NCBI GenBank assembly: GCA_904830895.1
Contig: LR882958.1
Span: 124,001-188,000 of the forward strand
Direction: 5' to 3'
DNA length: 64,000 nt
Source: Planktothrix rubescens CCAP 1459/22
Lineage (GTDB): Bacteria > Cyanobacteriota > Cyanobacteriia > Cyanobacteriales > Microcoleaceae
Shown here: positions 27,715 to 41,601 of the stretch, one piece after another
Position numbering within the stretch: the stretch's first letter is position 1
Layout of the letters: every line of letters starts with the position of its first letter
Notes under the pieces: generated by a model
What the model was told of the DNA's origin: nothing
The model's input: only the letters and a program-made list of their open reading frames with translations
The model's database searches: none
Translations under genes and position numbers: made by a program

Positions 27715-28575
27715 AAATTAGAGTTTGGGTGTAGATGATATAAAAAATCTTAATCAAGATTAAATAGAATATACTCAGAGAAGGGTAAAAAAATTCTAAG
27801 AATCTTCTTAATTAAGACTTTAGCACTAAAATTTAGTTTATAAATAATTCTGGCAAGATTTTATATTCAAAATATAGGCTTAAAAGGGAACACCGGATCT
27901 GGGGTAATACTTCTGGCTGTTTCATGTCAGTATTAAAATGTTACAACCTATTTAGGATTGCTATATATCTAAAATCATCTTCTACCAGTAAAACGTGCAT
28001 TGCTTCTGATTCCTATTTCACCCTAGTCAACTCAACTTAATTCTATAAAAGATTTTACCTTGAATTAGGTTATAAAACATAGTGACTTTTTTAAGGTTGT
28101 TGCTCTTTTGGCAATTCTGATCAAATTCCTAGGGGAATTATTAAGATTTGTTACAATTGACAATGATTGTCACCTTTACTTGTTTGATGATTAGTTGTTG
28201 GTGGTAAATTTTTTTTTGACCAAAAATCCCCCTTGAAAGAGGACGCTAAATTTAGGTAGCTTTCCTTTGAATTTTTTTTGCTAACGTCCTCTCTAATATG
28301 GATAAAGCAACTTTTTGGCCCATTCATCACTCCTAAACCCATCAACACCTCAAAGAATTATTGATTCTGTGCATCCATCCTAGAGTTGAGTTGTGAAGTT
28401 CAACAAAAGGTTGAGAATATTACGATTCCAGGCAGAAATAAAAAGATTATGAGTATCAGACCTTTATAGAAGGTTCAACCTGTTTTGGATTCAGGCATTT
28501 TTACTCATTTCAACAGTTAAACATCCAGACTCATTGAGTTGAAAACTTTCCTCAATCTAAGGAGCATCCAGTTTT
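27715..28575. other. 861-bp gap with repeats and relics
   Basis: No convincing gene is present. The first 330 bp are AT-rich and probably hold the sbtA promoter. A relic of the polysaccharide deacetylase 3' end lies at 28045-28141. TGACAA-TGA-TTGTCA forms a small palindrome near 28159-28173. AGAGGACG (28238-28245) pairs with CGTCCTCT (28285-28292) as a long hairpin containing T-runs. AAGGAGC before 28576 is the ribosome binding site of the next gene. Confidence 0.6.
28045..28141. repeat. Relic copy of the deacetylase gene 3' end
   Basis: About 97 bp match 38537-38633 in the same orientation with five or so mismatches and one T-run indel. The source is the last 23 or so codons of the polysaccharide deacetylase gene plus its downstream sequence. 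Similarity stops abruptly after GGGGAATTAT. Confidence 0.85.
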
Positions 28576-29718
28576 ATGACGAGCAGCGCAACAGCATCAC
28601 TGCTGTATTTTAACGGTACAGACGATAAGATTGATGTGGGCTACAACAATGAATTAAATCCCCAAACTTTTACAATTGAAGCTTGGGCATATTCCCGCAC
28701 CTCAAATACAGGAATTGAGCGCTCTGTATTAACTTCCCGTCCCGATAGTTATCGGTGGGGGTATATGTTTTATCAAGCTTGCTATCAAGATAATTGGGAA
28801 TTATGGCTGTTACCTCCAAATGGTGATTATCAAAAAATTCGCGGGCCAAAAGTTCAAGCCAATGTCTGGACTCATTTAGCCGCCACTTATGACCCAGGTT
28901 CGTCGGTAGCCCGGTTTTATATTAATGGCCAACAAGTCGCCCAACAAAACCTAAACTATCAACCTTCTGGGCCAACGGGTTCTAATCGTCAGAATATCTT
29001 ACGCATTGGGTCAGGTTCTACGGAGTCGGGCTATTGTGTTGGGGGGAATTATTTCTTTAATGGTTATATTGATGAAGTTCGCGTCTGGAATAGCGTTCGC
29101 AGCGCACAAGATATTCAGGCGAAAATGAATCAACGCCTCACGGGTCAAGAAGCCAATTTAGTCGCCTATTGGCGGTTAAGCGATATTTCGGGCGCACAAG
29201 TTTCTGACCTCACAGGTCATGGTCATAATGGCAATATTTGTAAAGGTTCCATGGGTTCTCAGACTATTAACCCACCCTTTCCAGTACCCACTCCAGTACC
29301 TACTCCAGTACCTACTCCAGTACCTACTCCAGTACCCACTCCACCTCCTCCAACTTCAGGTCAATTTGATGTGATCAGTACCTCAGAAACGGGCTATAAC
29401 TTCACGAATACATCGGGTCGGGATATGACCTTTACCTTTTACCCGTCAGGAGAATGGAAACCTGCCTATTTTCTTCCTTATTATACTGCCGCAGGAGAAA
29501 CGGGTTTTCCCTATCAACAATACATGGTTTATCCTCAACAGACATCCTTTGCACTGTTAGCAATTGACCTACAAACTAATACGGTTTTAGCCGAAATTAA
29601 CGGGACAACTCAATTCGTAATTAAACCCGGACAAACTGTTGCTTTCCGCATCAATGATGTTGTGGGTTGTTATGCCGATAATTATGGGACTTTAACCGTT
29701 CAATGGTCAGCCGTTTAG
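28576..29718 (+). CDS. LamG domain plus LecA (PA-IL)-like lectin protein
   Basis: The 380-residue protein begins directly with a LamG/concanavalin-type domain (about 8-225: LLYFNGTDDKIDVGY, FTIEAWAYSR, WTHLAATYDP, GYIDEVRVWNSVRSAQDI, LVAYWRLSD). A linker of five PVPT units leads to a C-terminal domain of about 115 residues that resembles Pseudomonas LecA: GEWKPAYF, FALLAIDLQT and the calcium/sugar loop INDVVGCYADNYGTLTV, with Asp and Asn residues at the positions of LecA Asp100, Asn107 and Asn108. No signal peptide is visible. It may bind galactose-like sugars; target unknown. 338 bp of its 3' end recur in the next gene. Confidence 0.8.
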   Translation: MTSSATASLLYFNGTDDKIDVGYNNELNPQTFTIEAWAYSRTSNTGIERSVLTSRPDSYRWGYMFYQACYQDNWELWLLPPNGDYQKIRGPKVQANVWTHLAATYDPGSSVARFYINGQQVAQQNLNYQPSGPTGSNRQNILRIGSGSTESGYCVGGNYFFNGYIDEVRVWNSVRSAQDIQAKMNQRLTGQEANLVAYWRLSDISGAQVSDLTGHGHNGNICKGSMGSQTINPPFPVPTPVPTPVPTPVPTPVPTPPPPTSGQFDVISTSETGYNFTNTSGRDMTFTFYPSGEWKPAYFLPYYTAAGETGFPYQQYMVYPQQTSFALLAIDLQTNTVLAEINGTTQFVIKPGQTVAFRINDVVGCYADNYGTLTVQWSAV

Positions 29719-29831
29719 GTTAATCTTAGAAACGGTAAATATTGAAGGAAAAGAGACGCTAAACAGTAGAAATATTATTGAGGTATTTCTACAAATTTGA
29801 AATTTATTTTGAACAACAGGAGAAGCAGCAG

Positions 29832-30656
29832 ATGATTGTCGATTTGCAATTTCGCACGATCTTAAATGGGAATACTTTTGGAACAGGAACATTTAGTTAT
29901 AACGGACAATATGCACCTGTTACTATTCTGCATCAAGGAGATTTAATTTCGTTTACTTATCAGGATGAAATTGTTGGGTCGCTTGACTTAAGCCACTTAG
30001 CAAATTTTGATTTTGTCTATCAAAGTGTTGACAATATTTGCGCTTTTAATATTGTTGTAGCCTCTGCGGATCGCACGCGATCGCTAACGGCTGGCCCCGC
30101 CCAACCTCACCTGACCCGACCCGGAACATCAGCCGATGTCGCTAAACCCCGTTCTCAAGTCGTAGAATTAGAGTGGCCTACCCCCAAAACCTCACCCCTA
30201 ACACCTCCACCTACCCCAGTCCCCACTGAAATCCCAACACCTCCACCTACTCCAGTCCCCACTGAAATCCCAACACCTCCACCTATCGAACTTTATGGTC
30301 AATTTGATGTTGTCAGTACCTCAGAAACGGGCTATAACTTCACGAATACATCGGGTCGGGATATGACCTTTACCTTTTACCCGTCAGGAGAATGGAAACC
30401 TGCCTATTTTCTTCCTTATTATACTGCCGCAGGAGAAACGGGTTTTCCCTATCAACAATACATGGTTTATCCTCAACAGACATCCTTTGCACTGTTAGCA
30501 ATTGACCTACAAACTAATACGGTTTTAGCCGAAATTAACGGGACAACTCAATTCGTAATTAAACCCGGACAAACTGTTGCTTTCCGCATCAATGATGTTG
30601 TGGGTTGTTATGCCGATAATTATGGGACTTTAACCGTTCAATGGTCAGCCGCTTAG
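29832..30656 (+). CDS. Lectin protein with a LecA-like C-terminal domain
   Basis: I start at ATG 29832, which follows AGGAGAAGCAG; an earlier in-frame ATG at 29778 lacks a binding site. The 274-residue protein has an N-terminal beta-rich domain (about 1-85, MIVDLQFRTILNGNTFGTGT) that I do not recognise, a Pro/Thr linker made of two 36-bp repeats, and a LecA-like domain that is the same as in the upstream gene, except for an Ile-to-Val-type change at its start and its last residue. Identical DNA from 30314 to 30651 shows recent duplication or gene conversion. No signal peptide is seen. Confidence 0.75.
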   Translation: MIVDLQFRTILNGNTFGTGTFSYNGQYAPVTILHQGDLISFTYQDEIVGSLDLSHLANFDFVYQSVDNICAFNIVVASADRTRSLTAGPAQPHLTRPGTSADVAKPRSQVVELEWPTPKTSPLTPPPTPVPTEIPTPPPTPVPTEIPTPPPIELYGQFDVVSTSETGYNFTNTSGRDMTFTFYPSGEWKPAYFLPYYTAAGETGFPYQQYMVYPQQTSFALLAIDLQTNTVLAEINGTTQFVIKPGQTVAFRINDVVGCYADNYGTLTVQWSAA

Positions 30657-30913
30657 GTCAACCCCAAATCTAGCTGTTAAACTCTTTCATCATTATTAAT
30701 TGATAACGGTCAGTAGGTTCTAGGTAAAATCCTGCATGAAGGAGAGTTAATTCTCTAGTTTTTTGTGATAAATTTGTCTTGAAATTCTACTTTATTTTCA
30801 TAAAAAATGTTGACAACATTTCATAATTGAATATAATGGTAGAATGGATTAATCCAATCAACTATGAGTTTCGTTCTGGTCTATCCATTGATTAATAATT
30901 AGGAGTAAAAACG

Positions 30914-31402
30914 ATGTCTGCTGCCGCAAACTGGCCTTTTCCATTGCCTAATACTAAAGATTTAGTCAGTTTGTTAAATTGGCTATATCTTCAAGGAAAA
31001 CGGGATTTTCCCTATAGCTATCTGTATGAAGCTAATCTAATTAATGCCAAACTTCCCTCGGTCGATCTTAGCTTTTCTTATATGTACAAAGCTAATTTAT
31101 TAGGTGTGGATTTAATGGCAGCTAACTTAGGCTATAGCTTTTTTGCCTATAGCTATTTGGGTTATGCTAACCTCACCTATGCCTATTTTGGCTATGCCTA
31201 TTTAGCTTATTCCAACTTAAATCATGCCAATCTCACCTACGCAAATTTGAGTAATTCTGATTTGAGTAATTCGGATTTAAGTTATGCAGATTTAACCAAT
31301 GCCGATCTAAGTAATTGTGATTTAAGTTATGCGAATCTAACAGGTGCAAATCTAACCAATACTAAAATGACAGGTGTAACGATGGTGGGAGTTATTAAGT
31401 AA
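30914..31402 (+). CDS. Tyrosine-rich pentapeptide-repeat protein
   Basis: After a 35-residue N-terminal helix (MSAAANWPFPLPNTKDLVSLL) the 162-residue chain is almost all pentapeptides. The early ones are unusual, with Tyr and Phe at the inner position (SYLYEANLI, YSFFAYSYLGYANLTYAYFG), and the later ones are classical (ANLSNSDLSNSDLSYADL). Aromatic residues stacked along one face of the beta-helix could bind sugars, but this is speculation. AGGAG lies 9 nt before the ATG. It sits between two lectin-type genes on the same strand and could belong to their unit. Confidence 0.8.
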   Translation: MSAAANWPFPLPNTKDLVSLLNWLYLQGKRDFPYSYLYEANLINAKLPSVDLSFSYMYKANLLGVDLMAANLGYSFFAYSYLGYANLTYAYFGYAYLAYSNLNHANLTYANLSNSDLSNSDLSYADLTNADLSNCDLSYANLTGANLTNTKMTGVTMVGVIK

Positions 31403-31567
31403 GTTATCCCCTAGGGTTTAAGCTGCACTTTACTTTCATCAGTTAGGTAGTTTGACCTTTAATCCTTGCCGAAAATAGAGTATGGAGAAACAAAAATTAT
31501 TTTTTATTTCTCCCTCTCTCCCCAATTTTAATTCAGTCTAACTTATTGAAAAGGATGGCAAATTATT

Positions 31568-32665
31568 ATGACCAGCAATAATCCTCAAACCTCTCTCTTG
31601 TACTTTGATGGTGTTGATGACTATGTAGAAATTCAATACCAAACTCAATTAAATCCTCCCACTTTTACGCTAGAAGCTTGGGTTTTAGATTTGAGTATTC
31701 CTGATACAAACTTAGGAATTATCACTTCAGCACCGTCCACGAAAAATAACTTTAAATGGGGATATGATTTTGCCGAACAGACCGGACGTTCATTTTTTGC
31801 ACTTCATGTTCCTGGAGGCAGTACCAATGCTCAGGTCAATAATTCTTTACCCAAAAATGTTTGGACTCATCTGGCAGGAACTTATGATCCAGCAACTAAA
31901 AGCCAACTTTTTTATATCAACGGTAAACTTATAAAATCTTATACAAGTAGCTATAAGCCAGAACCCCCCCCATCTGCTGACATTTATAACCTGTTGCGAC
32001 TAGGAACAGGATACATTGATCGATCAGGTTTTGGGGGTTGCTTCAAAGGATATATTGACGAAGTTCGTATCTGGAATATCGCTCGAACTGAACAACAAAT
32101 TCAAGAAACCCTCAATAAACAATTAACAGGTAAAGAACCAAATTTAGTTGGATATTGGCGCTTAAGCAATATTTCTGGGAATAAAGTTACTGATTTAACT
32201 GGGAAAGGGTTAGATGGAATCATTCATGGTAATCCTACCTCTCAATTAATTGATAACCCACTATTTACCACTCCCCAGCCAGAGAAAACGACAACCTTTG
32301 ATGTTGATATCAAATCCCCCTCTGGTACGCCCTTTAAAAATGCTTTTGCTCAGGAAGTTAGCTTCAAAGTTTCTGCTACTGGAACCTGGAAACCCGCTAA
32401 TTGGGAAGGTGTCGATTGTACGACCGCCGGATGGGAGGGTTTTGAATATCAAAATCTGATGAAATATCCTAACAATAATTCCTTTGCCTTGTTAGCAGTT
32501 GATGTGGAAACTAACACCGTTTTAGCAGAATTAGGGAGTGAAACAACTTTAGTCTTAAAACCCAGTCAAACCATTACCTTTGTTGTCAATGACATTCCTG
32601 GTAATGATGGCTATCAAGATAATACAGGACATCTCAGTGTCACTTCTGTTGCACAGATTCCCTAA
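31568..32665 (+). CDS. LamG domain plus LecA-like lectin protein, divergent paralogue
   Basis: The 365-residue protein has the same order of domains as the gene at 28576: LamG (about 8-220, LLYFDGVDDYVEIQYQTQLN, FTLEAWVLD, WTHLAGTYDP, GYIDEVRIWNIARTEQQI) and a C-terminal LecA-like domain (TWKPANWEGVDCTTAGWEG, FALLAVDVETNTVLAEL, VNDIPGNDGYQDNTGHLSV). The linker is short and not Pro-Thr rich. The metal loop has a two-residue insertion. At DNA level it is clearly diverged from the other two, so it is an older copy. No signal peptide is visible; a ribosome binding site AAGGA lies about 14 nt upstream of the ATG. Confidence 0.8.
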   Translation: MTSNNPQTSLLYFDGVDDYVEIQYQTQLNPPTFTLEAWVLDLSIPDTNLGIITSAPSTKNNFKWGYDFAEQTGRSFFALHVPGGSTNAQVNNSLPKNVWTHLAGTYDPATKSQLFYINGKLIKSYTSSYKPEPPPSADIYNLLRLGTGYIDRSGFGGCFKGYIDEVRIWNIARTEQQIQETLNKQLTGKEPNLVGYWRLSNISGNKVTDLTGKGLDGIIHGNPTSQLIDNPLFTTPQPEKTTTFDVDIKSPSGTPFKNAFAQEVSFKVSATGTWKPANWEGVDCTTAGWEGFEYQNLMKYPNNNSFALLAVDVETNTVLAELGSETTLVLKPSQTITFVVNDIPGNDGYQDNTGHLSVTSVAQIP

Positions 32666-32679
32666 AATTAGGTTGGGGA

Positions 32680-32711
32680 GAGTTGACTGTTGAAATGTTA
32701 ACAGTTAACTC
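32680..32711. terminator. Hairpin between convergent lectin and SCP2-like genes
   Basis: GAGTTGACTGTT (32680-32691) and AACAGTTAACTC (32700-32711) form a 12-bp stem with one G-U pair and an 8-nt loop, followed by TATTTGT. It may end transcription from both sides. Confidence 0.5.
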
Positions 32712-32732
32712 TATTTGTCCCCTTATCTTCCC

Positions 32733-33272
32733 CTATTCAAGATCAACTCGAAGCACATCCTCTGGTATATTATCAATCAAATAACTGTAGATTGGATGCT
32801 GTTGTTCTATGGTTGCAGGAATCGGAAAAACAGAAGTAGGCAACCAAGTTTGATCAAATTTGTTCCATAAATCTTGTAACTCTGGACGAATGGCACTATC
32901 CGCCAAAAAATTCATCACAATCCCATAAATTGCGGTTAAATTTGGTAAAGTTCCTTGAACATAAATTTTACCGATAACAACCGCAGCATCTAACGATAAC
33001 CGTCCCTGAATAATCGCCCTTAAAGTTTCAGCATCAGTACAAAAATCGACGGTCGAAACGTCAAAGAGAGGTTCAATTTCAACTTGTAATTGTTCACCCC
33101 CATGCGCCTTTAATTGTAAAGGAATGCCATCTAGTTCAATGACTGCGGATTTTCCTGAAACTGCCAGGACAAAACCATCCCAAGTTGAGCCTCCCTGAGT
33201 GCGAACTATAAATACTAATTCCTCTAACCATTCCTTTAATTGTTGCTGACGTTCTCTCAATAAATCAACCAT
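32733..33272 (-). CDS. SCP2-like (sterol carrier fold) protein, unknown ligand
   Basis: The 179-residue protein starts with a helix (MVDLLRERQQQLKEWLEEL), and its centre resembles an SCP2 domain: VDFCTDAETLRAIIQGRLSLDAAVVIGKIYVQGTLPNLTAIY, with the typical D/A-L-x-G-x-L-x-x-x-x-A-x-x-x-G-K-I-x-x-x-G line. SCP2 domains bind hydrophobic molecules such as sterols, acyl chains or isoprenoids. The C-terminus is unfamiliar. It is divergently arranged 126 bp from a prenyl-diphosphate synthase, so it might carry the product of that pathway. The family call is moderate. Confidence 0.6.
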   Translation of the reverse strand: MVDLLRERQQQLKEWLEELVFIVRTQGGSTWDGFVLAVSGKSAVIELDGIPLQLKAHGGEQLQVEIEPLFDVSTVDFCTDAETLRAIIQGRLSLDAAVVIGKIYVQGTLPNLTAIYGIVMNFLADSAIRPELQDLWNKFDQTWLPTSVFPIPATIEQQHPIYSYLIDNIPEDVLRVDLE

Positions 33273-33398
33273 CTTTAGGAGTTAAAAATGAATTTTATTT
33301 GAACCGGAATCTATGGCTAATATAGCATAAAAATTGATCGATTAAAACCCTAGCAACCCCTATCACCTATTTGAACGGCAACGAGTGAGTAAGAACCG

Positions 33399-34496
33399 AT
33401 GTTTAATCAAACTATTATTAATGAAGCCTTACAAAATTCCCGTTCTGCTATTGTTAGTAAAATTCAGGAATTTGTGGATAGCAAACGTCAAAGCACAGGT
33501 GCTTATACTCCTTTATATGATTTATTAACCGATTATCCCTTCCGCATGGGAAAAATGCTCAGACCCACTATTTGTATTAGTGTAGCTCGTGCTGTTGGAG
33601 GCATGGGACAATCTGCTTTAGCAACTGCTGCCGCCTTAGAACTTTATCATAATGCGTTTTTGATTCATGATGATATTGAAGATGGCTCAGAATCTCGACG
33701 GGGAAAAGAAACATTACATTCTAGGATTGGGATTCCTCGCGCCATTAATGTCGGAGATGCGACTAATGTTTTAGCTGTGGGTTTATTATTAGAAAATCTA
33801 TCTTTCTTGGGAGTGACAAAAACCCTAAATATTCTCCATGAAATTGAAGTTATGGCACAACAATCCGTTGAAGGACAGGCAATGGAATTAGATTGGGTAG
33901 CCGATAATGCCGCCTATTTAACGGATCAAGATTATTTTACCATGTGCGTTAAAAAAACCTGTTGGTATTCGTTCATGACCCCTTGTCGAATTGGGTTGAT
34001 TATTGGAAATCCTAATGCTAACGCCAGTGAATTAATCAAACCTTTAGCCGAGTTAACTCGATTTGGAATGCTACTAGGAATTGCCTTTCAAATTCAAGAT
34101 GATCTCTTAAATCTAGTGGGAGAAATCGAAACCTATGGCAAAGAAATTGGAGGAGATATTTATGAAGGAAAACGCACGGTGATGTTAAATCACGTCATTA
34201 CCCATAGCAAACCCCAAGAAGCAGAAAAAATTCTCAATATTTTAGCAATTCCAAGAGAAAAGAAAACTCCAGATCAAATTGAGTTTATTTTGCAATTGAT
34301 GCGAAATTATGGCAGTATAGAACATGGTTGGGATTTAGCTCGTTCCTATGCGAATCAATCCGCAGAACTGTTCGAATCTCTGGATTTCCTTCAAGCTGAA
34401 ACTCCCGTCCATCCAGAGGAAAAATTAATTTCAGAATATCATGATCGACGATTCTTAGAAGAATTGATAAATTATGTAATTTATCGCAATTTATAA
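33399..34496 (+). CDS. Polyprenyl synthetase family protein (isoprenyl diphosphate synthase)
   Basis: The 365-residue protein has the GKMLRPT region, the first Asp-rich motif DDIED (91-95) with RRGKETLHSR following, and the second motif QDDLLN (233-238), in which Asn238 replaces the usual Asp of DDxxD. It also keeps the KR/KRTV basic pair (GKRTVML). Such enzymes condense isopentenyl and allylic diphosphates; product length is not decided by sequence. The extra C-terminal 60 residues are longer than in the housekeeping CrtE type. It is the first gene of a same-strand group of three and is probably specialised, not the primary GGPP synthase. Confidence 0.88.
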   Translation: MFNQTIINEALQNSRSAIVSKIQEFVDSKRQSTGAYTPLYDLLTDYPFRMGKMLRPTICISVARAVGGMGQSALATAAALELYHNAFLIHDDIEDGSESRRGKETLHSRIGIPRAINVGDATNVLAVGLLLENLSFLGVTKTLNILHEIEVMAQQSVEGQAMELDWVADNAAYLTDQDYFTMCVKKTCWYSFMTPCRIGLIIGNPNANASELIKPLAELTRFGMLLGIAFQIQDDLLNLVGEIETYGKEIGGDIYEGKRTVMLNHVITHSKPQEAEKILNILAIPREKKTPDQIEFILQLMRNYGSIEHGWDLARSYANQSAELFESLDFLQAETPVHPEEKLISEYHDRRFLEELINYVIYRNL

Positions 34497-34518
34497 TCAA
34501 TAAAAATAGGATAAAATC

Positions 34519-36090
34519 ATGAATTTAGAATTAAAACAAACTGACAATTTCCCGATATTAATTCAGGGTAAACTCGGATTAAATGTGATCCTGAATTTAT
34601 CCTGTTGTAATCATCAGTTGGAAACCTTACTCATTCGTCCGATTTTAGAAGATGGGTTCACCGATCAACAACAGGTAGTATCTTGTTATTATCAAGTTAA
34701 TCCAGCCTATCTTTATTTATTATCAGGAAAAACGGCAAATCTGACTTTAACCTTCCAAATTCCCGAAACTATTCCTGATCATCCGGTGAAAATCGGGTTA
34801 AGATTTCCAGGGATAGAAGCAGAAGCGATTCCCATTCTCATCACTCCTGTATCTCCTCAACCTGATTCTGAAACGAACTCAATTCAGATTTATCTTCAAG
34901 TCACCTTTCCTTTTTCTAACCAGAATATTCAATCCCCAACTCATTTTTCTAGTCAAAAAACAGGCGCAATTTGGGGATTAATTTCAGGGTTAAACGATTT
35001 AGATACAATTCCCTCTCGTTGGTTTATTGCTGAAATTATTACGCTTTTAGCGATAATTGGAAATGATTATTCTCAGACTAAATTTGGAAATAAAATACTT
35101 CATAAACTTAAAAAAACAGATTTTTTCAAAGTAGGTATGAAGGCATTTAATTCAGCTAATATTTCTCACTGGCTGATCACAAGTTTATCTACGATTCAAA
35201 CTTATTTAGGTAAAAAATTAGGATTAGAAGTTTGGGAACAGTGGTTATATAGTTTGGAAAAAACTGATTTAGAAACCGAAAAAAAATCAGAAACTATTTT
35301 AATTTCTCCCCTGATATCTTCTGATGGGGTTTCTCAACAGAATATCCCAACAGAAGACTGGTTTTGTTATATTATTTTGGGTTTAAAACAGATTTCTCCC
35401 ACTTTTTCTAATCAATTAGAAACTCTAATTTTTCCAGCTTCAGCACAGCTTAACAATTCTTCTTTTGGGTCGAGGTTATTTAAGTTTATTCCCCCTAAAA
35501 CTAACCCAGAAAACCAAGCTATTACCCTCGAAAAAATTATCACTTTAACCACAGGAATATCTAGTTTTGATACCTTACCTGCTCGCTGGTTTATTGTAGA
35601 AGTGCTTTTGATTTTAGCCGATCATGGAAATCAGTATTCAACCCAAAAACAGGGGATAGAATTATGTTCTAAACTACAACGGACTCGATTTTTTAAAAAT
35701 GGGGTTATTGCTTTAGCTTCCGCACAATTTCCCCGGTGGTTAATTGTCAGCCATCAAGCAGCATCAGCCTTTCATACCGATACAGGAGAAAGCTTAGAAA
35801 CCCAAGGATTACTCTATTTTTGGGAAAAATGGTTATGGAGTTTAAATTCTCAGCCCTTGCCAAATATTTTAAATTATCATACCCTAACGGAAAACCTAAT
35901 TCAAAAAAATGGGATGAATGCTGAAAAATGGTTCGTTGATATTATTTTAGGACTGACTTTAATTTCGCCTAGAATAGCAGCATTTGTCCATTCCATGGCC
36001 GAGACAGCACCAGCAATTTCCCTCGAATCCGCAAGTGTTAAAACTCCATTAGAAAATATTCTCAATTCTAATCTATCTTTACAACGATGA
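34519..36090 (+). CDS. Unrecognised protein with two internal helical repeats
   Basis: I do not recognise this 523-residue family. Residues 1-130 are beta-rich. Two related helical units follow: about 155-292 (LDTIPSRWFIAEIITLLAIIGNDYS ... WEQWLYSL ... DWFCYIILGL) and about 345-484 (FDTLPARWFIVEVLLILADHGNQYS ... WEKWLWSL ... KWFVDIILGL), joined by a Ser-rich linker. The repeats have no DDxxD, DxDD or NSE motif. Together with the prenyl synthase 22 bp upstream and the CrtC-like gene overlapping its stop by 4 bp, it could be a new kind of terpenoid-processing protein. That is an inference from context only. Confidence 0.55.
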   Translation: MNLELKQTDNFPILIQGKLGLNVILNLSCCNHQLETLLIRPILEDGFTDQQQVVSCYYQVNPAYLYLLSGKTANLTLTFQIPETIPDHPVKIGLRFPGIEAEAIPILITPVSPQPDSETNSIQIYLQVTFPFSNQNIQSPTHFSSQKTGAIWGLISGLNDLDTIPSRWFIAEIITLLAIIGNDYSQTKFGNKILHKLKKTDFFKVGMKAFNSANISHWLITSLSTIQTYLGKKLGLEVWEQWLYSLEKTDLETEKKSETILISPLISSDGVSQQNIPTEDWFCYIILGLKQISPTFSNQLETLIFPASAQLNNSSFGSRLFKFIPPKTNPENQAITLEKIITLTTGISSFDTLPARWFIVEVLLILADHGNQYSTQKQGIELCSKLQRTRFFKNGVIALASAQFPRWLIVSHQAASAFHTDTGESLETQGLLYFWEKWLWSLNSQPLPNILNYHTLTENLIQKNGMNAEKWFVDIILGLTLISPRIAAFVHSMAETAPAISLESASVKTPLENILNSNLSLQR

Positions 36091-37154
36091 CTTTAGATCT
36101 TTCACTGATTAACCAGATTGAATCTTTACGGATTCCTTTAGATGATTCTGAATCTCCTTTAGATTGGAAAGATTGGTATCATTATATTCTGATTCATCCT
36201 AAAACCGGGATGCGAATTTTAGTGAATATTACTCTCATGGGTAGACCCCAACGGGGAGAAATTCAAGTCAGTTTGATTATTAATAGTCCCAATTATTTAT
36301 TACCCCTATCCCTACAAACACCGGATTTAATTGCGACCTTTGCTGCGGCTGTTTCTATTCCTTGGAAATCTAATCAGGTCTGTTCTCAACCCTTAGAAAT
36401 TCAAGTCAAAGGGGTACATTTACAAATTAATGGTGAACAATCTAAAATCCGAGTTTTTGACGAGCCATCGCAACTTTCTATTGATTTTAAAACTCAAGCC
36501 AAGGCTACTCCTTTATTAGTTACAGAAGATGCTCAATTTGGCAGTGGTTTTATCGGCTGGGGATTAATTCCTGGGTTAGAAGTTGTAGGAGAATTAGACG
36601 TTGGTGAAACCAAATTTAACTTAAATTCCGATTGGTTTTGTTATCACGATCGCAATTTTGGCCGATTCCGATGGGGAGAGGATATTGGTTGGGAATGGTT
36701 TGTGATTTTTGCCCAAACCGAAACTAAAATTCCCCTCACCCTAATCTTAGACTGGAGAACCAATAAAACCCATAGTCAAGGCGGTTTACCTTATATTTTT
36801 ATCTATCAAAATCATCAGTTAAGGAAAATCTTTTTAGGGGAAACCTTACGCCTTAATTGGAATTGGTCTACAGTTTCCTATCAACCCTTACGTTTACCTG
36901 GAATTATGGCTTCTTTATTTAGCGATCGCTGCCTAAAAATGCCCCAAAGCTTGCAAATTGAAGCCCAAGATGAACAGGATCATTTGTTGTTAAATCTCAA
37001 CTTTGATGCTACCCTAGAACTGATTGTCCCCGATAATCAATCCCGTCAATATACCTTTATTGAAGAACTCTCTGGAACTGTGGAAATGCACCTAAACCTT
37101 AACGAAACCCAATTAACAGCCCAAGGATTTGTTTATGCAGAATATGTGCAGTAA
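36087..37154 (+). CDS. CrtC/AttH-like lipocalin-fold protein
   Basis: The 355-residue protein has the marks of the double-lipocalin superfamily that includes carotenoid 1,2-hydratase CrtC and AttH: a front half with WKDWYHYILIHPKTGMRILV and the central catalytic-like block YHDRNFGRFRWG (186-197) followed by WEWFVIFAQT. In CrtC this His-Asp region hydrates the end of an acyclic terpene; related proteins act as cyclases. It overlaps the preceding gene by 4 bp, so it is translationally coupled to the two-repeat protein. The reaction and substrate are unknown. Call strength is moderate because it rests on the central motif. Confidence 0.65.
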   Translation: MTLDLSLINQIESLRIPLDDSESPLDWKDWYHYILIHPKTGMRILVNITLMGRPQRGEIQVSLIINSPNYLLPLSLQTPDLIATFAAAVSIPWKSNQVCSQPLEIQVKGVHLQINGEQSKIRVFDEPSQLSIDFKTQAKATPLLVTEDAQFGSGFIGWGLIPGLEVVGELDVGETKFNLNSDWFCYHDRNFGRFRWGEDIGWEWFVIFAQTETKIPLTLILDWRTNKTHSQGGLPYIFIYQNHQLRKIFLGETLRLNWNWSTVSYQPLRLPGIMASLFSDRCLKMPQSLQIEAQDEQDHLLLNLNFDATLELIVPDNQSRQYTFIEELSGTVEMHLNLNETQLTAQGFVYAEYVQ

Positions 37155-37168
37155 ACTCCCAACACCGA

Positions 37169-38512
37169 TTAACAAGACTTCAAATAGGTTTCAATAATAT
37201 CAATAGCTTTGTGGTTTCCCTGTTCGGCCGCGATATAGTGGCTGACTTCAGTGACACGGGTAGCATAATTTGGATCACCTAATAACACTTTAAGTTCTGC
37301 TAAAACCGTAGACGCTTGATAAAGATTGCGGTCTAATATTCGTCCAACTCCCATTTTTACCACTCTCGCCGCATTGTCCGGTTGATCATAATTAAAAGGA
37401 ACAATCAACATCGGATGCCCTGCGCGTAAGGCTTCTGCCGTTGTTCCCATCCCCCCATGATGGACAATTGCCGCCGCATGGGGAAAAATAGCCGCATGGG
37501 GCGCGTAGTCAACAGCAATGATTCCTTCGGGTAAACCCAAAGCGTTCAATTGGTGTGCCGCCTTTCCCATCATCAAAATTGCCCGATATCCTAACTCTTG
37601 GGCGGCTATCATCCCCTCCTGATAAAAGTTGCCAGGAGCTAAAACAGCCGTTGACCCCAAGGTAAATACAATCGCAGGTGGCCCATTATCCAAAAAGGCC
37701 TGAAGTTCTGGGGATAACCCCGGCCCAGAATTGGGACGGTAAAAGGGAAAACCCGTAATCTGGGTTTGTGGGGGCCAATCTGGTTTGGCCGTGGCGAAGG
37801 TTTGGGAAAATAAACCTAATACCAGCGGCGCAAATTGTCCTTCAAACAAAGGATCAAGCCCGCCTTCTAACCCTAATTCTGCTTGTAATTGTTCCAAAGG
37901 AGCGCTCCAAAGTTGAATACTCCAGCGCAATAGACGCAGGAGTGAATCTCTAGCCACCACAGCCATTGCCTGTTGATGGCGAGATTGAGTGCTTTTTTCC
38001 TGGGTGGTATCATAGACTGAGATCAAAGAAGCACCGGGAGATAAAATCGTAGAAACCCAGGGAATTGCTATTTTTTCAGCGACTAAAGATGCCACTAAAA
38101 TTAAAGGATGGGTTAAGAGTAAATCTGCTCCTTGACAAGCCTTGATTAAGTCACAATAACTGGTGCGTAAATAGGGCATTAATAAATAATTGATAATGTA
38201 TTCTACGCCCCGTTGGGAGTCCATCATCATTGAAATAAATTCTCCCTCATTGGGATCTTGGGGTAAACCACCATTGGGTCTGAGGGGATGAAATTCTATT
38301 CCTGCTGTTTCTAGGGTCTGTTGATATTGTTCACAGGTGGCAATACTGGGAGAATATCCTCGACTTTGCAATTCCTGAGCCAACGCCATATAGGGATATA
38401 AATCCCCTAAAGATCCAAAGGTTGCTAAAACAATTCTCTTTCCAGAGCCGTTTGAAGTTTGATCTTTTAATCTACTGTCCATGGGATTGAATTTACAAAT
38501 ACCTGATTCCAC
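37169..38512 (-). CDS. Family 1 glycosyltransferase (MGT/sterol-glucosyltransferase type)
   Basis: The 447-residue protein has an N-terminal acceptor domain starting RIVLATFGSLGDLYPYMALAQELQSRG (about 26-52) and a C-terminal donor-binding domain with FTLGSTAVLAPG and the PSPG-like motif HHGGMGTTAEALRAGHPMLIVP near residue 350, then NYDQPDNAARV. These proteins glycosylate small hydrophobic acceptors: sterols, macrolides, carotenoids. ATG 38482 (MDSRLKDQ) is an alternative start 10 codons in. It faces the terpenoid-like genes and ends 14 bp from the CrtC-like gene, so a terpenoid acceptor is plausible, though unproven. Confidence 0.85.
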   Translation of the reverse strand: MESGICKFNPMDSRLKDQTSNGSGKRIVLATFGSLGDLYPYMALAQELQSRGYSPSIATCEQYQQTLETAGIEFHPLRPNGGLPQDPNEGEFISMMMDSQRGVEYIINYLLMPYLRTSYCDLIKACQGADLLLTHPLILVASLVAEKIAIPWVSTILSPGASLISVYDTTQEKSTQSRHQQAMAVVARDSLLRLLRWSIQLWSAPLEQLQAELGLEGGLDPLFEGQFAPLVLGLFSQTFATAKPDWPPQTQITGFPFYRPNSGPGLSPELQAFLDNGPPAIVFTLGSTAVLAPGNFYQEGMIAAQELGYRAILMMGKAAHQLNALGLPEGIIAVDYAPHAAIFPHAAAIVHHGGMGTTAEALRAGHPMLIVPFNYDQPDNAARVVKMGVGRILDRNLYQASTVLAELKVLLGDPNYATRVTEVSHYIAAEQGNHKAIDIIETYLKSC

Positions 38513-38562
38513 ATTATTAAATGTATCATGAGCTAATAAAATATTTTGCCTTGAATTAAGTT

Positions 38563-39453
38563 CTAAAACATAGTGACTTTTTTTAAGGTTGTTGCTCTTT
38601 TGGCAATTCTGATCAAATTCCTAGGGGAATTATCACGATTAACTGTGATTCGAGAAATTCGATATTTATTGGTATAGCGATTAATTCGTGTCATATTTCC
38701 ATCATAGATATATCCGGTTAAATAATAGGGAGGTAAGGATTTTTCCACTCTCCGGTTAACTTTTCCAAAGGGATAAGCAAAATGAGCAGCCACCCATTTA
38801 TTTTTATCTAAATCTTCCATACAGGTTCTTAGATCGAGTTTAGCTTGTTCGAGTTCAAATTTTAAATCTTTCCCTTTGATTAAGGTTAATTGTTTATGGG
38901 TTTGACCATGGGATTGAATATCATAATATCCGCGTTTATAGCCATCCCGTAGTTCTGCACAACTTACATGGGGTAAAAAATCCTTTAACCTCACTCCCAT
39001 TAAGCCTGGATTTACAAACCAGACAATTTTGATTTTTTTGTTGTATTCTTTTTCTAAGTCTTTTAAAATCGGTAAAACATTCTCGTGAACACCATAATAA
39101 CCATCGTCAAAGCTAATCATTATAGGTTTTTGCCCGATTTTTTCTGAAGGAATGGGCTGGGATTTTTCAATAAAATAGATAAATAAATCTTGAGTTGTTA
39201 AAAACCAATAGTTATTTTTAGCTAAATAATTAAGAAAAGTATAGAAATCTTGTTTTAAATAATCATTTTCAAATTGGGTTCTTCTTTCAGGACTTTGATC
39301 AATATTAGATTCGTCAATAATATCATGTAATCCAAAAATGGGGATTCTGATACTGGCGGTTCTGTAGGTAGCTCCCAGGGCGGGAATACTTAACAAAATC
39401 ACACAAAGTAAGCCAATTAGGAAACTAAGCAAAATCCGATTTTTTTTTGCCAT
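38563..39453 (-). CDS. Secreted polysaccharide deacetylase (CE4)
   Basis: The 296-residue product has a signal peptide (LLSFLIGLLCVILLSIPALG, cleaved near residue 28) and the NodB homology domain: PIMISFDDGYYG (motif 1, Asp pair), SHGQTHKQL (motif 2, the histidines) and AAHFAYPFGKVNRRVEKSL (motif 3). Such enzymes remove acetyl groups from chitin-like or peptidoglycan chains or from exopolysaccharide. It would act in the periplasm or cell wall. The last codons plus downstream DNA recur as a relic at 28045-28141. It is a single gene. The acidic substrate is unknown. Confidence 0.88.
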   Translation of the reverse strand: MAKKNRILLSFLIGLLCVILLSIPALGATYRTASIRIPIFGLHDIIDESNIDQSPERRTQFENDYLKQDFYTFLNYLAKNNYWFLTTQDLFIYFIEKSQPIPSEKIGQKPIMISFDDGYYGVHENVLPILKDLEKEYNKKIKIVWFVNPGLMGVRLKDFLPHVSCAELRDGYKRGYYDIQSHGQTHKQLTLIKGKDLKFELEQAKLDLRTCMEDLDKNKWVAAHFAYPFGKVNRRVEKSLPPYYLTGYIYDGNMTRINRYTNKYRISRITVNRDNSPRNLIRIAKRATTLKKVTMF

Positions 39454-39529
39454 TTCTGTTGTATAATAGAGAGATTAAAACCACAAAGACACAAAGACAC
39501 GAAGAAAGATAAAGAGAATAATTTTAATT

Positions 39530-40069
39530 TTAACTGAATCCGATTTCTGTCCCCTTTCCGGCATGAACCAGGGCTAATTTTTCATAGCGTTGAGCGTGTT
39601 CAATTAAATCTGCCGCAGCTTCCGGGGACACATCCCGCAGACGTTTGGCGGGAACACCCACAACTAGGGAAAACGGCGGCACATCTTTGGTGACCACCGA
39701 ACCCGCTCCAATTATACTTCCGGTTCCCACCCGTACCCCGTCTAATACAACGGCCCCAATCCCAATTAAACTTCCCCGTTCGATATGGGCCGAATGAATC
39801 ACCGCCCGATGACCCACAGTAACACAATCTTCTAAAAGGGTAACTTTCCCCGGATCACCGTGCAGAATCGCACCATCCTGTATATTAGTTTTGGCACCAA
39901 TAATAATTCGTTCCACATCCCCCCGAACCACCGCCCCATACCAAATACTCGCCCCCGCCCCAATTTCTACAAACCCCATAACAACTGCATTGGGGGCAAC
40001 AAAAGCAGCCTGGGAAATATCGACATCGGGCCAGTAAGGTTGATCATTCTGTGGAGATGGATGAGACAT
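39530..40069 (-). CDS. Gamma-carbonic anhydrase family protein
   Basis: The 179-residue protein is a left-handed beta-helix trimer of the gamma-class type: FVAPNAVVMGFVEIGAGASIWYGAVVRGDVERIIIGAKTNIQDGAILH, the His-containing GHRAVIHSAHIERG, and GIGAVVLDG. The three zinc-binding histidines appear in HGD, GHRAVIH and SAH. Family members include carboxysome CcmM-type and the mitochondrial-complex-I-type proteins, and many are not active. It lies away from the carbon uptake operon and is not linked to a carboxysome gene. No C-terminal RuBisCO-like repeat exists, so it is not CcmM. Confidence 0.87.
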   Translation of the reverse strand: MSHPSPQNDQPYWPDVDISQAAFVAPNAVVMGFVEIGAGASIWYGAVVRGDVERIIIGAKTNIQDGAILHGDPGKVTLLEDCVTVGHRAVIHSAHIERGSLIGIGAVVLDGVRVGTGSIIGAGSVVTKDVPPFSLVVGVPAKRLRDVSPEAAADLIEHAQRYEKLALVHAGKGTEIGFS

Positions 40070-40180: not shown

Positions 40181-41601
40181 GGTCTGAAGACACGCTCGAT
40201 TCTGCGGACAGAATTAGTTTAATCTAATTCTCGCTACGACTGCCGCATATCGTCTACTGAGTTGATTAAGCGACAAACCTAATCTTCCCGATACTTTTTT
40301 TAAAATATTAGCTGCACCATTTAAGTCAGCATTAACAACAAAACCATCAGATGTCCGATAAAGACCACGCTTAATTCTATTCCCAGATGCTTTCCACCCC
40401 ATCGGTTTTTCACCGTATTTGGGTAGGGAGTCCCCATCTAAGAAACTAGCTTTTGAAGTGTAGGCTTCCTCGGTTTCAATAAACCTAATCCCGTGTAAAT
40501 CACAAAGTTGTTTTACACGGGATTTTAATTTACCCAAAGGCATTTGAACAAACTTTTGATTATTCAAATTCCCTAAATTTGCATCAACTTTAAACCCTTC
40601 ATTCCAACCCATTACCAAAGTTCCAATACCGTATTTCAGGCAATGGTTGATAATGTGTTTAGCTGCTTTATTAATCCCGTCACGCATTTGGTGATTACGC
40701 TTACGAGTTACACAGTCTAACCAATTATCCCAATATCCTTGGGGTTTACCTTCTTGGCGGGTTGATACCTTTTTATTCCAAAGTTGATTTTTAGCTTTCA
40801 AATCTCTAGCATCAATCAAAAAGGAATTCCCTAAAGTATCAACACAAGCTGCCAAATTATCAGCAGTTCCTAAATCAATAGACAACGCTTGGTTAATATC
40901 TAACTCATGGTTTTGTTTCTCTACTTCGTAGGATACGTCTAAATAAAAAGCACCATTTTTAGGAAGAATCGTGAACTCTTTAACTTTGGAATAGTCAAGA
41001 TTTGATGGCATAGGTAAGAAAAATTCAGATACGCCAAACCATCTTTTAACTGTTAATCCCAGAGAAAATCTAAGTTGACCATTAATTAATGCTGGTCTTT
41101 GCCCTCCAGAATTAGGATAGGCAACTTTAAATAGTTTAGAACCTTTGAGATAACCGGGAGGTTTAGGTCTAAAATGTAGCTGACCTTTCTTGTGTGAATC
41201 TCTCAAGTTTTTGAAAGATTTGAATGCTTCTGTCACCGACATTAAGGTTTGTTGCATCGGTGTTGATGGCATTGATTGTGCTAATAAAGATTTTGATACC
41301 GATGGTTCAAAAGCTAAATCAAACTTTCCTGTTAGTAATTTACCTGTCTTAAACAATGTTTGACGGGCAAAATAAATTCCCGTGTTGTACAATTTACCGG
41401 ATTGTTGACAAAGGTATTCTAGTAACGCACAGGTTTCTAGGTCGGGAGACAACAAGATTTGCTGTACTCCGATTGTTTTACTTGCTTTAGTCATTGACTC
41501 GACTATTACGACCATGTTGGTTTCTTTATGATAGCATTACTAAATATTTCTAGGGGAATAAATTCCCCTGGGTCGTGTTTCCTCTGGTGGTCTGAAGACA
41601 C
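40181..41601. mobile_element. TnpB-only IS200/IS605-type element
   Basis: The tnpB gene is flanked by two copies of GGTCTGAAGACAC in direct orientation (40181-40193 and 41589-41601). A hairpin ATTCTG-CGGA-CAGAAT (40199-40214) overlaps the tnpB stop codon, as expected for the right end, and AGGGGAA-TAAA-TTCCCCT (41552-41569) lies upstream as a candidate left-end hairpin. No tnpA is present, so it depends on a partner in trans or is immobile. The boundaries are not certain to the base. Confidence 0.6.
40214..41515 (-). CDS. tnpB: TnpB (IS200/IS605 OrfB) RNA-guided nuclease
   Basis: The 433-residue protein has the RuvC-like catalytic set SIDLGTADN (D214), FIETEEAYTSKAS (E347) and NADLNGAANIL (D397). 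Unlike typical TnpB it has no four-cysteine zinc finger between the second and third motif; the sequence there reads FLDGDSLPKYGEKPMGWKASG, a Cys-free version seen in some cyanobacterial relatives. The N-terminal HTH-like and WED regions are complete. TnpB cuts DNA guided by an RNA from the element's 3' end. No frameshift is seen, so it is likely intact. Activity is not shown. Confidence 0.93.
   Translation of the reverse strand: MVVIVESMTKASKTIGVQQILLSPDLETCALLEYLCQQSGKLYNTGIYFARQTLFKTGKLLTGKFDLAFEPSVSKSLLAQSMPSTPMQQTLMSVTEAFKSFKNLRDSHKKGQLHFRPKPPGYLKGSKLFKVAYPNSGGQRPALINGQLRFSLGLTVKRWFGVSEFFLPMPSNLDYSKVKEFTILPKNGAFYLDVSYEVEKQNHELDINQALSIDLGTADNLAACVDTLGNSFLIDARDLKAKNQLWNKKVSTRQEGKPQGYWDNWLDCVTRKRNHQMRDGINKAAKHIINHCLKYGIGTLVMGWNEGFKVDANLGNLNNQKFVQMPLGKLKSRVKQLCDLHGIRFIETEEAYTSKASFLDGDSLPKYGEKPMGWKASGNRIKRGLYRTSDGFVVNADLNGAANILKKVSGRLGLSLNQLSRRYAAVVARIRLN

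Follow-up and report, generated by a model that had tools for sequence, protein, structure and literature searches.

A conserved gene set in some filamentous cyanobacteria that looks built to make, modify and glycosylate an isoprenoid, usually beside genes for sugar-binding-type proteins

We analysed a stretch of 64,000 nucleotides from Planktothrix rubescens CCAP 1459/22 (contig LR882958.1, positions 124,001 to 188,000; hereafter the window), in which a trans-prenyl diphosphate synthase (PPS), a two-repeat protein (REP) and a protein with a CrtC/AttH-type fold (CRTC-like) are encoded side by side, next to an SCP2-like protein and a glycosyltransferase (GT). The grouping of these genes exceeds chance, as indicated by synteny counts and by the co-divergence of their products. 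Judged from the sequences, some filamentous cyanobacteria contain a conserved set apparently built to make, modify and glycosylate an isoprenoid, and genes for sugar-binding-type proteins are its usual neighbours. The core is best understood as an isoprenoid pathway in which a prenyl chain is made, altered by the CRTC-like protein through cation chemistry and glycosylated, and we put the chances at about even that it represents a dedicated isoprenoid-glycoside pathway acting together with carbohydrate-binding-type proteins.

Conservation of the PPS-REP-CRTC core

All five open reading frames (ORFs) that an earlier note had placed between positions 32733 and 38512 of the window (from a genome of 5.7 Mb in 5 contigs) exist at these coordinates, as does the 4-bp overlap (ATGA) of the REP and CRTC-like genes (34519-36090 and 36087-37154). 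A scan of genome contigs with an alignment of the CRTC-like family, which used short exact peptide patterns and thereby reaches close relatives only, yielded 17 loci, all of them cyanobacterial. REP adjoins the CRTC-like gene at every one of these loci. PPS lies upstream of REP at 15, the contigs of the other two (L019 and L027) ending at that point, and at all 15 the order and strand of PPS, REP and CRTC are kept. As judged by ORF coordinates, the 4-bp overlap recurs at 8 or more of the 17 loci (at least L014-L018, L025, L026 and L028). The SCP2 gene is present at 12 loci and the GT at 11, or 12 if the remaining L027 contig, read as L012, is counted; the complete five-gene set was found at 9 of 17. 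Two further genomes of the same genus (L010 and L011) contain all five genes. The 17 loci do not amount to 17 independent events, as they include the near-relative pairs L015/L017, L021/L024, L022/L023 and L026/L028.

Distances between taxa run in parallel for the five proteins when compared pair by pair (r 0.82 to 0.98, permutation p 0.001 each, 10 to 19 taxa), although common descent of the species contributes part of this correlation and lessens its weight for a joint pathway. REP and the CRTC-like protein are rare and patchy: each occurs in 2 of 388 genomes of the class, the window genome counted, and the CRTC-like gene in 4 of the 9 same-genus genomes contained in a set of 20 relatives. 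Free variation of the gene neighbours between strains, which the earlier note had named as the outcome that would speak against it, is thus not what synteny counts and co-divergence reveal for PPS, REP and CRTC, since these genes form a conserved unit.

Properties of the five proteins

In keeping with a trans-prenyl diphosphate synthase, PPS contains a PF00348 domain and both Asp-rich motifs, the first reading DD[IV][EQ]D and the second DDLLN in 17 of 17 members each. Its identity is 68-76% to the 14 members outside Planktothrix and 28 and 32% to two paralogues of its own genome, and at E<=1e-30 only 1 of 145 class genomes, the window genome itself, yields a match; by sequence, PPS therefore is a cluster-specific clade. 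The best solved relative is the geranylgeranyl diphosphate synthase of Thermus thermophilus (1wmw, E 1.3e-50). The second Asp motif had been described as altered; DDLLN is indeed present throughout, but DDxxN is not unusual, as 1wmw shares the DDxLN motif (DDVLNL), and the argument built on it carries no weight and was dropped. Unlike 1wmw, the PPS relatives outside Planktothrix have a hydrophobic N-terminus and a long linker. An N-terminal extension that opens with a hydrophobic segment is found in 14 of these 14 members, with a best 17-residue Kyte-Doolittle mean of 1.36 to 3.37, and of 1.91 or more in 13; the lowest value, that of L016, is no better than the enzyme core (1.19-1.34 in three complete Planktothrix-type proteins). 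Planktothrix-type proteins lack the extension. The low-complexity linker (L014-L029, outside Planktothrix) comprises about 40 to more than 450 residues and is missing from the window PPS (33399). A C20 product is a guess from the family and a general rule. As a candidate, the prenyltransferase cargo of family 2 encapsulins (NF041169) was rejected for PPS, which scored 157.8 bits against a cut-off of 450.

The structural model of the CRTC-like protein predicts a two-barrel lipocalin-like fold spanning the whole chain, as in the CrtC/AttH superfamily. The earlier label CrtC/AttH-like holds at the level of the fold, but not at that of the Pfam families: CrtC-type models, including the PF07143 profile, match 0 of 19 members at E<=10, the window genome has no PF07143 match, and the NCBIfam and Pfam models miss the protein. 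Comparison by sequence with solved structures gave a best E of 0.057, which we take as chance. All 19 members share a YHD...WxW motif, a candidate catalytic site that may be equivalent to Tyr-x-Asp and Trp-x-Trp of CrtC, as judged by spacing, not by superposition; the CrtC residues used for comparison are Tyr266, Asp268, Trp283 and Trp285, as given in PMC4717167 and PMC12402844. In contrast to CrtC (PF07143/PF17186), AttH and kievitone hydratase, the CRTC-like gene adjoins a prenyl synthase and REP. According to a section of PMC5805349, hydration of a prenyl double bond by kievitone hydratase yields a tertiary alcohol. A search of BFVD with the CRTC-like model returned one match at E<=0.001, the giant-virus protein A0A1V0SB04 of Catovirus (Foldseek E 4.5e-11), for which the same fold is predicted.

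The conserved protein REP contains two helical repeats that share 40% identity across 151 aligned positions (E 8.5e-29), in agreement with its earlier description. Pfam yields weak, scattered matches to the 20 members, the best being HTH_45 (E 0.0027, 5 members at E<=10), and the best sequence match to a solved structure (E 0.32) was taken as chance. A structural search returned no clear relative; its matched rows mostly cover residues 2-115 and barely the helical part, so that no family is excluded. The earlier remark that a known terpene cyclase motif is missing holds. DxDD, DDxx[DE] and NSE-like motifs occur in 0 of 20 REP proteins and in 0, 2 and 1 of the 19 CRTC-like members, respectively, neither family shows the class I (DDxx[DE] with NSE/DTE) or class II (DxDD) signature, and Pfam names no terpene synthase among the five proteins.

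The GT contains PF00201/PF06722 and the C-terminal HxGGxGT of a family 1-type glycosyltransferase, the latter in 13 of 13 members, and is 24% identical to the other family 1-type GT of the window genome. Its family assignment stood, whereas its start is likely the internal ATG at 38482, the start used in L010 and L011. For the SCP2-like protein, PF02036 matches were obtained with 9 of 14 homologues (E<=10, best 1.7e-5), but with the window copy there was none at E<=1; on this basis the label is plausible but weak for the window copy.

A parallel arrangement was observed in another genome (G088), where a single protein of 751 aa joins PF07143, PF17186 and PF00348 (L049:9518-11773) and is followed on the same strand by genes for a KshA-like Rieske oxygenase, a P450, a GT and an FkbM methyltransferase. 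Common to both clusters are a CrtC-type domain, a prenyl synthase and a GT, the latter 49% identical to the window GT. In contrast to the window, G088 has these two domains in one protein with a real PF07143/PF17186 match, encodes the Rieske, P450 and FkbM enzymes in addition, and gave no tblastn match to REP or SCP2 (E 1e-3). The synthase part of the fusion is 31% identical to the window PPS, and its CrtC part has matches in 39 of 376 class genomes at E<=0.001. The fusion row is an independent parallel to the cluster. The cluster of Arthrospira sp. PCC 9108 is likewise adjoined by a P450 and an FkbM methyltransferase gene (L024:14156-15553 and L024:12528-13238), both types being present in G088 as well.

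Lectin-type neighbours and surroundings

The span considered earlier leaves out recurrent lectin-type neighbours, which in the window occupy 28576-32665. Three genes with PA-IL(LecA)-like domains, two of them with LamG, are located directly upstream of the cluster; the whole genome has four PA-IL-like domains, so that only one lies elsewhere. The match to LecA itself (1l7l) is weak (E 0.0052, over the stretch ND..G.Y..N.G), and PF07828 is matched by one of the four PA-IL-like sequences (E 3.2e-7), not by the first row. The relatives of the pentapeptide-type protein in L010 and L011 run on into a PA-IL-like domain (blastp).

Table 1. Features of the gene set and its flank (positions in the window)
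Feature	Position	Strand	Basis
LamG protein with C-terminal PA-IL(LecA)-like domain	28576..29718	+	PF13385 E 9.6e-27; profile A12
Protein with C-terminal PA-IL(LecA)-like domain	29778..30656	+	profile A12; no Pfam match at E<=0.1
Pentapeptide-type repeat protein	30914..31402	+	repeat pattern read from sequence; blastp
LamG protein with C-terminal PA-IL(LecA)-like domain	31568..32665	+	PF13385 E 3.3e-24; profile A12
SCP2-like hydrophobic carrier (weak label)	32733..33272	-	homologues' PF02036 matches
PPS, trans-prenyl diphosphate synthase, cluster-specific clade	33399..34496	+	PF00348 E 5.4e-57
PPS first Asp motif DDIED	33669-33683	+	sequence
PPS second Asp motif DDLLN	34098-34112	+	sequence
REP, Ig-like N-terminal domain (about residues 12-130) and two helical repeats	34519..36090	+
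REP helical repeats	34978-35409 and 35545-35979	+
CRTC-like protein, predicted CrtC/AttH/kievitone hydratase/Diels-Alderase fold	36087..37154	+
Motif Y186-H-D188 ... W202-E-W204, candidate catalytic site	36642..36698	+	19/19 members
GT, family 1-type glycosyltransferase	37169..38512	-	PF06722, PF00201

Neighbours were called by blastp with seeds, and seeds and representatives were named by Pfam. By this measure, genes of the LamG, PA-IL-like, ricin-B, ILEI or DUF642 type are found at 14 of 17 loci, the 3.9-kb contig L019 being counted among those without; at L014 and L025, a PA-IL-like gene sits inside the core. On the Spirulina CS-785/01-type contig L012, a 1509-aa protein that matches the H-type lectin family (L012:14335-18864; PF09458 E 1.3e-8) has the cluster-type GT as its C-terminal part, and a 1121-aa protein with LamG domains and a long part lacking a family assignment is encoded close by (L012:10931-14296).

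For 10 of the 17 loci the genome was searched for ILEI, which was found in 8; the genomes of L020 and L024 yielded none. With contigs assigned to loci by their coordinates, 14 of 18 ILEI domain copies lie in the locus or at most 0.5 kb beyond it, with at least one such copy in each of the eight genomes. A draw of 291 class genomes, which includes the window genome (cluster present, ILEI absent) and is not kinship-matched to the ten, gave one partial match (E 6.4e-9). ILEI (FAM3-like) proteins at the cluster include L018:3603-5327, L026:3425-5167, L028:3461-5176 and L029:9323-10990, and FG-GAP repeats were seen in those of L018 and L029. FAM3C and the stem of POMGnT1, which belong to the same domain family, bind GlcNAc, as stated in part of PMC9802357. 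The carbohydrate-binding domains FAM3/ILEI, PA-IL(LecA), ricin-B and LamG recur in the flanking genes, for whose products sugar binding is predicted. We know of no carotenoid or terpene pathway that predicts such a lectin link, and among the matches listed from the open-licence literature we found neither an isoprenoid pathway linked to these domains nor a description of the gene set. Likewise, the parts seen of a Planktothrix metabolite survey (PMC6784222) and of a cyanobacterial terpene survey (PMC12271159) do not mention the set.

On the other flank, a polysaccharide deacetylase is encoded next to the GT (38563-39453; PF01522 E 5.6e-12). L010 and L011 show no such neighbour among their ORFs, and an ORF reading like AroA (EPSP synthase) is present instead. 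An ORF at 40214-41515 reads like a TnpB/IS200-IS605-type transposon protein. Anti-phage defence and plasmid carriage were rejected as contexts: PADLOC gave no match for 7 proteins at E<=0.01, and tblastn of the CRTC-like protein against a plasmid collection returned none. No RNA family reached its gathering score in 28000-40000, and neither promoter patterns (17 observed, 18.3 expected) nor terminator patterns (2 observed, 5.1 expected) gave a signal.

Proposed pathway and competing explanations

We infer the functional steps from family, fold, motif and gene position; the gene associations are observed. PPS, putatively tethered to a membrane in most species by its hydrophobic N-terminus, would synthesize a short-chain all-trans prenyl diphosphate, perhaps C20. 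The CRTC-like protein would then hold the far end of the chain, with D188 protonating the terminal double bond and the tryptophans steadying the tertiary cation, so that capture by water would give a tertiary alcohol. REP, always encoded beside it, may assist here as a partner, as a scaffold or by presenting the substrate. The GT would glycosylate the product, the SCP2-like protein would carry it, and the flanking lectin-type proteins may bind this glycoside or be active on the same surface.

The logic of making, modifying and glycosylating an isoprenoid, as put forward in the earlier note, thus gains from the conserved unit, the predicted CrtC/AttH fold and the independent fusion in G088; it loses with the void Asp-motif argument and with several observations that weigh against such a pathway. 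L015 lacks the GT and L018 and L025 lack SCP2 despite full flanks, L016, cut upstream, shows no GT either, and both genes switch side and strand among loci. By these searches L021 and L024 lack a lectin-type neighbour, a pentapeptide-type relative being all that was found there. Because the GT family is broad (matches at E<=1e-60 in 19 of 145 class genomes, the own genome and G088 included) and five such GT neighbourhoods (L084-L088) contain no other core gene at E<=1e-5, the acceptor of the GT is inferred from gene position alone. As to the CRTC-like protein, its Asp-to-Trp spacing is 14 as compared to 15 in CrtC, and the essential His239 of CrtC has no evident partner, the corresponding stretch of the window protein containing no His; W158 could stand for Trp241. 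For comparison, 15 PF07143 loci were collected, of which seven yielded an ORF by our filter; removal of L035 and L038 (apparent wrong frames) and of the fusion L045 from the resulting alignment (A10) left four rows (A11). Alignment of the CRTC-like family with these cyanobacterial PF07143 proteins by hhalign was weak (probability 1.9%), and in the PF07143 profile alignment the tryptophans align while the Asp is two positions off; with the fusion protein, the probability was 4.0%, the Asp and the tryptophans being aligned across a gap.

The cation could also be captured by the next double bond instead of water, in which case the CRTC-like protein, alone or with REP, would be a non-canonical terpene cyclase and the glycosylated product a cyclic terpenoid. 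The cation chemistry is the same, the fold also houses the ring-forming Diels-Alderases Fsa2, Phm7 and CghA, and the lack of canonical terpene synthase motifs in REP and of a Pfam-named synthase among the five proteins fits an unconventional enzyme. However, those solved relatives whose chemistry comes nearest comprise a hydratase and a lyase, and Diels-Alderases are not known to use cations; we regard cyclization as unlikely, though worth serious consideration. Somewhat less likely still is a role of the cluster at the cell surface, with a prenyl product that is not secreted as a metabolite but anchors or carries surface glycans or the lectin-type proteins as a lipid. The lectin-type genes, their position within the core at two loci, the GT-lectin fusion of L012 and the hydrophobic N-terminus of PPS would all suit this role, but the types of lectin vary between loci, and the terminal isoprene modification suggested by the CRTC-like fold would be superfluous for an anchor.

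A carotenoid-tailoring set leading to a glycoside such as a myxoxanthophyll-like pigment would agree with the presence of a GT and with the hydration of carotenoids by CrtC reported in part of PMC4717167. Yet the cluster has its own separate prenyl synthase clade, the window ORFs, by reading, include no nameable carotenoid synthase or desaturase, and a set this rare in the class is poorly compatible with it, which makes this explanation improbable. That the genes are chance neighbours without joint function is scarcely credible: the mobility of SCP2 and GT speaks for it, but the constant pairing of REP with the CRTC-like gene, the presence of PPS wherever the contig allows, co-divergence and the ILEI enrichment speak against it, and for the PPS-REP-CRTC core it is already refuted.

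Beyond the isoprenoid-glycoside pathway that we favour, we tentatively suggest that a membrane-tethered prenyl synthase, a CrtC-fold hydratase or cyclase and a new two-repeat protein are coupled to exchangeable lectin-type proteins, including FAM3/ILEI proteins nearly absent from other cyanobacteria. The isoprenoid glycoside and its own lectins could then form one device for surface recognition or grazer defence, a system not described in the literature searched. If true, the gene set would represent a further way of forming terpenoid glycosides, either cyclic or with a tertiary alcohol, in genera amenable to cultivation. The occurrence of ILEI in 8 of 10 as compared to 1 of 291 genomes gives a starting point for finding out what FAM3/ILEI domains do in bacteria, and the apparent link of a lipid pathway with sugar-binding-type proteins is directly testable.
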